From positions 1-42,517 of the forward strand of contig CALHCP010000050.1 of NCBI GenBank assembly GCA_937936705.1: DNA of 42,517 bases, given 5' to 3'. The notes below the pieces were generated by a model, which did no database searches, was not told where the DNA came from, and saw only the letters and a list, made by a program, of their open reading frames with translations. Numbering within the stretch: the first letter of the stretch is position 1; the number at the start of each line of letters is the position of its first letter. Source of the DNA: an uncultured cyanobacterium. Lineage in GTDB: Bacteria; Cyanobacteriota; Cyanobacteriia; Gloeomargaritales; Gloeomargaritaceae. Of the stretch, positions 37,129 through 41,894 are shown one piece after another. The position numbers were made by a program, and so were the translations under genes.

Positions 37129-40100
37129 CTAACTCACCTTAAACTGAGCCACGTTTTCTTGCAGTTCGGCCGCCACCCCCAACAGATGGGTAAAGGTATC
37201 GGCCACCGCCACCGACTGCTGGGAGGTTTGGTTGGCAATCTCCGCCACGTCTTGCATGGTTTGACTCACCACCGCCGAGGTTTGCGACTGGGCTTGGGCA
37301 GCCTGGGCAATTTCCCCCACCAGGGTACTGATTTGGGCAGTCACAGCCGCAATCTGGCTCAACCGTTGCCGCGCTTCCGCCACCAACTGCGTTCCCACCA
37401 CCACCTGTTCCGTCCCGGCTTCCATGGCCGCCACCACCTCGTTGGTTTCCGCTTGGATTTCCTCCACCAACTGTTCGATTTCGCCCGTGGCACTGGCCGA
37501 TTGCTGCGCCAACGAGCGCACTTCTTCCGCCACCACCGCAAACCCGCGACCTTCCTCCCCGGCGCGCGCCGCCTCAATTGCCGCATTCAAGGCCAGCAAA
37601 TTGGTCTGGGCGGCAAAATTGCCGATCAGGTTCACCACCCGCGAGATTTTTTGGGAGGCCTCACCCAGGCGTTTCACCTTTTTGGCCGTAGCCGCCACGG
37701 TTTCCCGAATCGCCGAAATCCCCTCCACCGTGCGGTTCATGGCCTCATCCCCCTCCTGCACCGTCTGGTTGGCCTGCTGAACCCGCAGTTCGGCACTGTG
37801 GGCATTGGCCGCCACCTGCTGAATGGACTGCACCATCTGCTGAATCTGCTGGAGCGCCACCCCAATCGCCTCCGCCTGCCGGGCCGCTTCCGATGACAGG
37901 GCATTCACCGGCGGGGCGCTTCTCTGGGCGGTATCCGCCACCGCCTGCGCCGCCACCTGCACCTGCTGCACAATCTGTTGCAAACTCTCCACAATCGCGT
38001 TGAAAAAGTCCGCCACCGTGCCCATTTCCCCGGAGGTCACCCGCGCCCGCACGGTCAAATCCCCCTTGAACGCCCCCTCAATGTCCCCCAAAAACTGGGC
38101 TAACTGGCCTTGAATCGCCTCCCGCTGCCGCTTTTGCTCCTCGGAAACCGCCTCGGCCTTCTGCCGCGCCTGCTCCACCTGCTCCAGCAAAATCGCCTGA
38201 TCCAGGGCAAAACCCACCTGCGCCGCCACCTGCCGCAGGAAATTGATTTCCATCTCCTGCCACGGGCGCGGGCCACTGCACTGGTGGGCGATCAGTAACC
38301 CCAACAACTTACCTTCGGCCAGAATCGGGGCCACCAAATTCGCCTTCACCGCAAAGGGTTCCAACTGCTGCAAATGACATTCCGTCAACCCGGCTTTGTA
38401 AATATCCGGCGTCGCTTGCACCCGTCCCCGCTGGTATTTCTCCACATATTTATCGGCAAAACAGGGGTCGGCAATTTGCGCACCCAGAGCCTTCGGCCAC
38501 GCCCCCGCCACCGCTTCCGCGACCACCGTTCCCTTCCAGGTTTCATCGAAGAGATAGACAATACACCGGTCGGATTTCAGGGCTTTTCGCACCTCTTGAA
38601 CCGTCGTGTTGTAAATATCCGAACGTCGCAAGCTCTGGCGAATTTTCGAGGTAATATCATTCACCAATTGCGCTTGAGTGGCGGCCAATTCCTGCTGCTT
38701 ACGCAGGGTTTCTTGTTCTTCTAAAGCCACCGCTTGGTCGAGGGCAAAACCCACCTGTACCGCCACTTTCCCCAGGAAATCCACTTCCAATTCCGTCCAC
38801 GGGCGCGGGCCGCTGCATTGATGGGCAATCAGCAAACCGAATAAGCGATTCCCCAACAGAATCGGCGCCACTAAATTCGCTTTCACCGCAAACGGCTCCA
38901 ACTGTTGCAAATGACAGGGCGTTAACCCCGCCTGGTAAATATCGGCAGTGGCCTTCACCCGACCCGCCCGGTACTGTTCCACATATTTATCCGCAAAACA
39001 GGGGTCGGCAATCAAGGCTCCCAAGGCGGGCGGATAACCGGGCGTGAGGGCTTCCGCCACCACCGTTCCCTGCCATTTTTCGTCAAAAAGATACACAATA
39101 CACCGATCCGCTTTCAGGGCATCTTTGACTTCCCAAACGGTGGTTTCGTAAATGGTTTTTCTCTGCAGGGATTCCCGGATTTTCGAGGTAATCCGGTTGA
39201 GCAATTGCTCCTGCTCGGCTTTGGCTTTTTGTTGCGCCAATAAATTGGCCTGATCCAGGGCAAAACCCACCTGCACAGCCACCTGCTGCATCAGTTCAAT
39301 TTCACCCCTCTGCCACTGGCGCGGGCCGCTGCATTGATGGGCAATCAACAAGCCGAACAATTGATTGCCTAACAAAATCGGGGCGACTAAATTGGCCTTG
39401 ACCGCAAAGGGTTCCAACTGCTGTAAATGGCACTCGGTTAACCCCGCCCGGTAAATATCCGGGGTGGCCTGCACCCGACCCCGCTGGTATTTTTCCACAT
39501 ATTTATCGGCAAAACAGGGGTCGGCAATCTGTGCCCCCAACGCCTTCGGCCAGCCCACCGCCACCGATTCGGCCACCACGGTTCCCTTCCAGGTTGCATC
39601 GAACAGATACACAAGACACCGGTCACTTTCCAGGGCTTCGCGCATCTGCTGCACCGTGGTTTGGAAAATCGCCTGCCGGTCGAGGGATTGACGAATCCGC
39701 AGGGTAATATCGTTGAGCAATTGCGCCAAATTCGCCTTGGTTTCCTGTTCCCGGCGCAGGGCTTCCTGCCGCTCCAGGGCAATCGCCTGATCCAGGGCAA
39801 AGCCCATCTGCAAGGCCACCTGCCGCGCCAATTCAATCTCGCCGGTTTGCCATTCCCGCGGGTCACCGCATTGATGGTTAATCAATAACCCCAACAATTT
39901 CCCTTCGACCAGAATGGGAGCAACCAGATTGGCTCTCACTTGGAACGGTTCCAACTGTTGCAGATGACACTGGGTTAAGCCGGCCTGGTAAATATCCGCC
40001 GTGGGTTTCACCCGTCCGGCGCGGTACTGCTCCACATACCGGTCGGCAAAACAGGGGTCGGCAATCTGCGCCCCCAACGCCTTAGGAAAGCGGGGATCGA

Positions 40101-41268
40101 CGGATTCCGCCACAATGGTGCCCTGCCACTGTTCATCAAACAAATACACCACGCAGCGATCCGATTTCAGGGCTTGGCGCAATTCCCGCACGGTCGTGTT
40201 GTAAATCGTTTGCCGGTCGAGAGATTCCCGCATTTTGGCGATAATTTGATTCAACAGAGCCGCTTGCGTCATCTGCATCTGTTGGCTTTGCCACAACTGG
40301 GCTTGCTCCAGGGCAAAACCCACCTGCACGGCCACCTGCGCCAAAAATTCCTGCTCCCCCGCCGACCACTGTCGGGTCTCCCCGCATTGGTGGGCAATCA
40401 GCAACCCCAGCAATTTCCCCTCCACCAAAATCGGGGTCACCAAATTGGCTTTGACCTGGAACCGCTCCAGAATTTGGATATGACAATTTTTTAACCCAGC
40501 ATTATAAATATCCCCCGTGGCCTGCACCCGCCCGGCTTGGTACTGGGTCACATACTCGCCCCGAAAACAGGGGTCGTCAATTTTTTCCTGCAACGCTTGC
40601 ACCCAACCCCGCCCCACCGACTCGGCCACCACCGTGCCCACCCAGTCGGCATCGAAGCGATAGACCAGCACCCGGTCGCACCGCAACACCTGCCGCACTT
40701 CCCGCACCGCCGTATCCATGATGGTTTGAGGGTCTTGGGTCTGCCGCAGTTGCCGCACCAATTCCCGAAACTGGTACGCCCGCTCCGTTTCCGCCTGCTG
40801 TTGTTCCTGAGCCGCTTGCAGTTGGGTCGCCAGCGCATTCAACTCCTGTGCCACCTGCGCCAGCTCATCCTCCCCCGGCAAAGACACCCGGGCTTGCCAA
40901 TCCCCCCGCCGCAGCCGTTGCGCCATCTGCATCAAAAGTAAAGCCGGTTTGGTCAACCCCTGCCCCAACAAGGCCGCCGCCGCCAAGCCGATGAGTACAC
41001 CCACCAGGGCTGCCGCCCCGCCCGCCAGGGTTTTCTGCTCCACCGTGGCAGCCGTCTCCTGGGGTAACAAAGCCTTGTAGGTCACCAGCCCGGCCACCGC
41101 CCCACACAAACCGGTCATCATCGCCAGAACCAACAACCGATTGCCCAGAGAACGAGGCGGGCGGGATGATTCCCCGGTCGCCGCCGCCATCTCCACAGGG
41201 GCAACCTCATGGGCGGTCAGGGCTGGCGAGCGGAGCGAAACCTTCGGTTTGGTCGGGGTGCGGGTCAT
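37129..41268 (-). CDS. pixJ: PixJ-like methyl-accepting chemotaxis receptor with five cyanobacteriochrome-type GAF domains
   Basis: A 1379-residue receptor, probably for phototaxis. Domains: TM1 about 43-65, TM2 about 81-103, HAMP about 104-156, five GAF domains (about 180-325, 352-497, 531-676, 703-848, 881-1026), a second HAMP-like segment about 1055-1105, and a methyl-accepting signalling domain to the end. The signalling tip at about 1209-1253 includes [20 protein letters not shown]. Each GAF has a DPCF motif (Cys234, 406, 585, 757, 935) and a Cys-His motif (Cys262, 434, 613, 785, 963), always 28 residues apart. In TePixJ (C494/C522) these two cysteines hold the bilin, so each GAF may bind phycoviolobilin or phycocyanobilin. 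The frame opens at 41571, but ATG 41268 (MTRTPTK) is the likely start, with no strong ribosome-binding site. A CheW gene lies 143 bp upstream. Confidence 0.93.
38191..40731 (-). repeat. Tandem array of five GAF-coding modules inside pixJ
   Basis: Modules of about 172-179 codons repeat five times at intervals of roughly 516-537 bases. Long near-identical DNA blocks recur, for example around the ACAGGGGTCGGCAAT segment (near 38463, 39000, 39525 and 40051). GAF3 and GAF5 are the most similar to each other at the protein level, and GAF1 the most divergent. Confidence 0.85.
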
Positions 41269-41411: not shown

Positions 41412-41894
41412 CTAGCCCGGTGAATTGACAGACAACGCCTGGAATATCCCCTGCCCGGCCAACACCAGGAAAAGGCGTTCGTCTGTGAGCCAATAGCCCC
41501 GCAGGCATTGGGCGAGGGTGGGCGACATTTCCGTACCGGGAGGGGATTGTAATTCGTCGAGGGGACACCAAAACATTTGCCCGACCTGGGCGACGACTAG
41601 GCCAAGGGGTTGTTTTTCGTGGGTAACAATGAGGACGTTATAGGTTAATTGCTGGGGATACAATTCCACAATTGAACCGAAGCCCAACCAAGCCGCCAAA
41701 TCCAACAACCACAGCACTTCTCCCCGCCAATTGGTAACGCCCATCACTGCCGGGAGCATATCGGGGATCGCCAGAATTTGTTGGGTAGGAATGGGTAAAA
41801 CTTCCAAGCATTCATGTGCCGCAAGCAGCGCCGGATTGGTCGGGGTCAGGGCAAAACTCAGGCAGAGTAAGGCTTGATTGGTGGTGGTGGACAT
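41412..41894 (-). CDS. CheW-like adaptor (PixI/PilI type)
   Basis: A 160-residue CheW-domain protein that couples a chemoreceptor to a CheA kinase. Motifs: [40 protein letters not shown] and [20 protein letters not shown], typical of cyanobacterial PixI and PilI. ATG 41894 is the natural start. It precedes the PixJ-like receptor gene on the same strand with 143 bp between them, so it is either an operon partner or separately transcribed. The kinase (PixL) and regulators (PixG, PixH) are not adjacent. Confidence 0.92.

Follow-up and report, generated by a model that had tools for sequence, protein, structure and literature searches.

A probable PixJ-type photoreceptor of Gloeomargarita with five two-cysteine GAF domains in series

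The direct prior art for an array of this kind is PixJ_Se of Synechococcus elongatus UTEX 3055 (Synpcc7942_0858), which reportedly, in work ascribed to Yang and colleagues in 2018, carries five blue/green GAF domains before its MCP domain. Cysteine changes in different GAFs of this receptor are said, from the same work, to have affected positive and negative phototaxis. PixJ_Se senses blue and green light and steers movement in both directions (PMC12652804, PMC10781874). Across PixJ receptors at large, the number of tandem GAFs ranges from one to five (PMC13383048). For example, TePixJ of Thermosynechococcus (PDB 4FOF, 4GLQ, 3VV4, 6PRU) has a single GAF in an open frame of 941 residues (locus L163), and Synechocystis PixJ1 (TaxD1), a blue/green receptor with two transmembrane helices, tandem GAFs and a C-terminal MCP domain, has two, of which only the second binds PCB (PMC5812497). 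The PtxD receptor (NpF2164) of Nostoc punctiforme likewise couples cyanobacteriochrome GAFs in tandem to an MCP domain, but these are seven in number and of mixed spectral types, with six colours in total and a bilin linked to a second cysteine in two of them (PMC5812497). In N. punctiforme, PixJ is reportedly not what drives phototaxis, at least as Harwood et al. 2021 are cited in PMC9090330.

The stretch of DNA analysed here (the window) is an entire contig (C50) of 42,517 nucleotides from a Gloeomargarita MAG of 2.05 Mb that is 83% complete, and its receptor gene extends the multi-GAF PixJ receptors to Gloeomargarita, a genus to which plastids are more closely related than to any other free-living group known. 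The pixJ-like gene occupies 37129..41268 of the minus strand, with its ATG at 41268 and its stop codon ending at 37129, and encodes 1379 amino acids in the PixJ-type order TM-TM-HAMP-GAF x5-MCPsignal, in which the transmembrane helices were read from the sequence and the other domains were identified with Pfam. All of its parts lie on the minus strand. Two hydrophobic segments (40957..41142; approximately residues 43-65 and 82-104) are read as transmembrane helices connected by a short loop in the periplasm. The HAMP domain lies at 40813..40965 (residues 102-152; PF00672, 31.7 bits against a cut-off of 25) and the MCP signalling domain at 37237..37704 (residues 1189-1344; PF00015, E 2e-43). 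Between the two, a Pfam search of the translated open frame returned five GAF stretches (E 7e-109): GAF1 at 40309..40734 (C234/C262), GAF2 at 39793..40218 (C406/C434), GAF3 at 39256..39681 (C585/C613), GAF4 at 38740..39159 (C757/C785) and GAF5 at 38203..38622 (C936/C964).

The original prediction held that all five GAFs keep both the DXCF and the Cys-His cysteine at the distance found in TePixJ (C494/C522), and the residue positions bear this out: the DPCF motifs start at residues 232, 404, 583, 755 and 934, and the two cysteines are 28 residues apart in 5/5 GAFs. Neither varies in any of the five GAFs across seven Gloeomargarita sequences, which comprise the window, five genomes and strain SKYG116, and hence the pattern is not due to chance. 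The description of the GAFs as near-identical was overstated. Over a core of 128 amino acids their pairwise identity is 55-81% in protein and 62-79% in DNA, with GAF1 as the outlier, and they are therefore like modules and not near-identical copies. At this level of DNA identity, with a longest identical run of 35 nt, a recent DNA duplication within the window was rejected.

By sequence and predicted fold, the five GAFs can be classed as putative TePixJ-type bilin GAFs. The best four PDB sequence matches of GAF4 are TePixJ chains (E 1e-43 to 8e-45). A structure model of GAF1 (pLDDT 93) has 4FOF of TePixJ as its best Foldseek match (E 5.7e-20; TM-score 0.82 on the query and 0.87 on the target) and aligns at 1.0 A on 4GLQ and at 1.0-2.2 A on the TePixJ crystal structures overall. 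GAF2-5 are placed among two-cysteine GAFs in the sampled tree, and the position of GAF1 is unsure. The counter-cases named beforehand, a blocked pocket and a placement among non-bilin MCP GAFs, were thus not borne out. Ten TePixJ positions were compared (Y463, D492, C494, F495, W499, R507, C522, H523, Q526 and N535), among them Y463, F495 and R507, which were added on what is generally known of the family. Residues D492, C494, H498, W499, C522, H523, Q526 and N535 of TePixJ have been named around the chromophore (PMC6955287). Of the ten positions, GAF2-5 keep nine and GAF1 keeps eight, with Y463, D492, C494, F495, R507, C522, H523 and N535 present in 5/5 window GAFs and Q526 in GAF2-5. At the Q526 position, GAF1 has Ile in all seven Gloeomargarita sequences compared, a state that is rare in two-cysteine GAFs outside the genus (3/218). 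The other exception is position 499, where every window GAF has Tyr and TePixJ has Trp; W499Y was considered as an unusual feature and rejected, as Tyr is the common state (195/218 outside the genus). The window GAFs also differ from TePixJ at H498, a position with no conservation in the compared GAFs.

The receptor with five GAFs is conserved in every Gloeomargarita genome examined. A full-length match with five two-cysteine GAFs was found in 6/6 other genomes of the genus searched (80-89% identity), and Gloeomargarita sp. SKYG116, with a matching GAF at 84% identity, has a receptor with the same five GAFs and the same spacing; the assignment of the genus to Gloeomargarita is based on this named relative. 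The dN/dS values of 0.04-0.21 per GAF against five relatives, which are rough because dS is high and near saturation in several comparisons, point to purifying selection on the receptor. Among the seven Gloeomargarita sequences, the sole loss at the other kept residues is a Cys at the TePixJ Y463 position in GAF4 of genome G001 (L024), the only such change among the 35 GAFs compared.

A CheW-like (PixI-like) gene identified with Pfam (41412..41894, minus strand) adjoins pixJ directly upstream on the same strand, and the contig ends approximately 600 bases past it. Another contig of the source genome encodes a PixL-like CheA, whose domains are two Hpt, HATPase, CheW and a receiver. CheW adjoins pixJ also in one further genome (G005), its best match lies elsewhere in four other species, and a single species (G006) has a weak match only. 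Since the position of CheW varies among species and the PixL-like CheA sits on another contig, the pix genes appear to be dispersed in Gloeomargarita. In a genome of the same family (G007) a CheA-like gene directly follows pixJ, and in other Gloeomargarita species groEL, a signal peptidase gene or ftsH is found upstream of pixJ (L117, L118, L120). ATPases of the PilB/PilT family (type IV pilus type) are present. PcyA (PF05996) was not found in the source genome, at its completeness of 83%; it is present in 6/6 relatives and its absence is probably an assembly gap.

The best explanation, to which we give a probability of roughly 0.85, is that the gene encodes the PixJ cyanobacteriochrome receptor of Gloeomargarita, in which bilin-loaded blue/green GAFs in series would steer movement. 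The claim of a PixJ-type receptor with DXCF cyanobacteriochrome GAFs has stood, with TePixJ the best match by sequence (GAF4) and by fold (GAF1) and most of the bilin-linked residues examined kept, and all five GAFs of the receptor are very probably pigment domains that switch between blue and green. In each GAF the Cys-His cysteine would be the attachment point of a bilin, phycocyanobilin would be converted to phycoviolobilin, and the DPCF cysteine would bond to C10 when the domain is in its dark state, so that each GAF would photoswitch between blue and green like TePixJ. Helices would join the GAFs in series, with lengths that keep the coiled-coil register. Light-driven changes in one or several GAFs would pass along the stalk to the MCP hairpin, and from there to CheW and CheA and on to the type IV pilus machinery, which would set the direction of movement. 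Several points speak against it: only the second of the two GAFs of Synechocystis PixJ1 binds PCB, so that an array may be loaded in part; GAF1 has the rare Ile at the Q526 position; PcyA is missing from the incomplete source genome; and PixJ reportedly does not drive phototaxis in N. punctiforme. The literature searched contained no paper on phototaxis in Gloeomargarita.

Homogeneous two-cysteine arrays had been proposed to depart from the known PixJ receptors. This was not borne out, as they recur in several lineages and PixJ_Se itself is said to have five GAFs. The loci examined were fetched with the window GAFs, with ‘all two-cysteine’ referring to every detected GAF, and the counts therefore show the recurrence and not the frequency of the arrays. 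All-two-cysteine MCP receptors were found with six GAFs in genome G018 and five in G037 of the same genus, and with five in Hydrococcus Prado102 and in a Xenococcaceae MAG; those listed from the last two have Cys-Tyr instead of Cys-His. Similar receptors with three GAFs occur in Nostocales, Prochloraceae and Aliterella. A strong match to the window GAF type is present in 134/291 genomes of the class surveyed. Searching plasmids yielded nothing beyond short matches to MCPs of Vibrio.

Genome G037, which we take to be probably Synechococcus elongatus (PCC 6301), offers a comparison with PixJ_Se, as its receptor has five two-cysteine GAFs and PixJ_Se reportedly has five blue/green GAFs before the MCP domain. 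The G037 receptor belongs to a run of genes whose sizes suit CheY, CheW and CheA, the same arrangement being Pfam-identified in G018, and this apparent pix operon contrasts with the dispersed pix genes of Gloeomargarita. Its GAF spacing is 172 residues throughout, whereas Gloeomargarita alternates between 172 and 179. The GAFs of G037 and G018 cluster with one another and with TePixJ (98/86) and are separate from those of Gloeomargarita. Within Gloeomargarita, GAF1, GAF2, GAF3 and GAF4 each form one tree group across the genus, and GAF5 does so partly; the order of the five GAFs therefore predates the sampled species. One founder array common to Gloeomargarita and the S. elongatus-like genus, with a single founder clade for both GAF sets, was weakly rejected (p 0.045) in a test of approximately 131 columns for which the group was named after the first tree had been seen. 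This modestly favours a separate amplification of the two sets of arrays. The tree also suggests an origin from two founders, with GAF1 apart from GAF2-5, yet the test did not reject a single clade (p 0.40). What is new is a second lineage with a five-GAF array, its 172/179 spacing, and modest evidence for more than one origin. This lineage, separate on the tree from the S. elongatus-like one, can be used for asking what several like switches are for.

The GAF-to-GAF spacing is 172, 179, 172 and 179 residues in all Gloeomargarita receptors examined. Across the fetched loci, 165/184 neighbour pairs, many of them related by descent and therefore not independent cases, are spaced 172 or 179 residues, one heptad apart; spacings of 164, 171, 173, 174, 178, 180 and 184 also occur. 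A model of the five-GAF array (mean pLDDT 71, pTM 0.38) predicts continuous inter-GAF helices of 44-53 residues, and as its overall confidence is low, the helix assignment alone was used. Regular tandem-GAF spacing and coiled-coil linkers have already been noted in cyanobacteriochromes (PMC6798134). Such regularity eases the design of linker-register and GAF-deletion tests.

As to the purpose of the array, signal averaging, sensitivity and dose gating, which the original prediction put forward, are speculative suggestions. A tentative refinement that is compatible with the PixJ explanation is that five like blue/green switches serve photon catch, through more chromophores in each receptor, or a graded reading of intensity, with the output following the number of switched GAFs. 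Throughout Gloeomargarita neither cysteine is lost from any of the five GAFs, all-two-cysteine arrays are met with in several lineages and are likely to have more than one origin, and the number of GAFs is still shifting: the G018 and G037 receptors of one genus differ by one GAF (six against five), and GAF3 and GAF4 of G018 have 93% DNA identity. Against this stand the divergence of GAF1 from GAF2-5, for which reason the modules are not interchangeable, and the PixJ_Se mutants, whose cysteine changes in different GAFs reportedly differ in their effect on direction. A bolder and more doubtful version is that arrays of five or six like blue/green GAFs were amplified independently in several lineages of cyanobacteria since chromophore number is itself selected, PixJ being a graded light-dose sensor and Gloeomargarita GAF1 being differently tuned.

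Alternatively, one or two GAFs may control the output, and the others may act as structural spacers, fixing how far the CheA base plate lies above the membrane and so directing the receptor to an array of its own. The spacing fixed at 172 or 179 residues, the inter-GAF helices of 44-53 residues in the low-confidence array model, and the change of receptor length by whole-GAF steps would fit such a role, but pure spacers need neither cysteines nor bilin-linked residues, and these are kept in the five GAFs of seven sequences, which makes this an unlikely account. That the GAFs are MCP GAFs without bilin which merely resemble cyanobacteriochromes is very improbable and was rejected, given that photoactive TePixJ is the closest solved relative by sequence and fold and that purifying selection has preserved the cysteines and most of the residues examined.

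Two minor observations concern loci outside the genus. A two-GAF MCP receptor of Hydrococcus sp. Prado102 (L035, 6791-7162) has one GAF that is 80% identical to a Gloeomargarita GAF and falls among the Gloeomargarita GAFs in the tree, a possible case of gene transfer. Likewise, a contig filed as Candidatus Gracilibacteria (L056) carries cyanobacterial PixJ-type receptors, which is probably a binning error.
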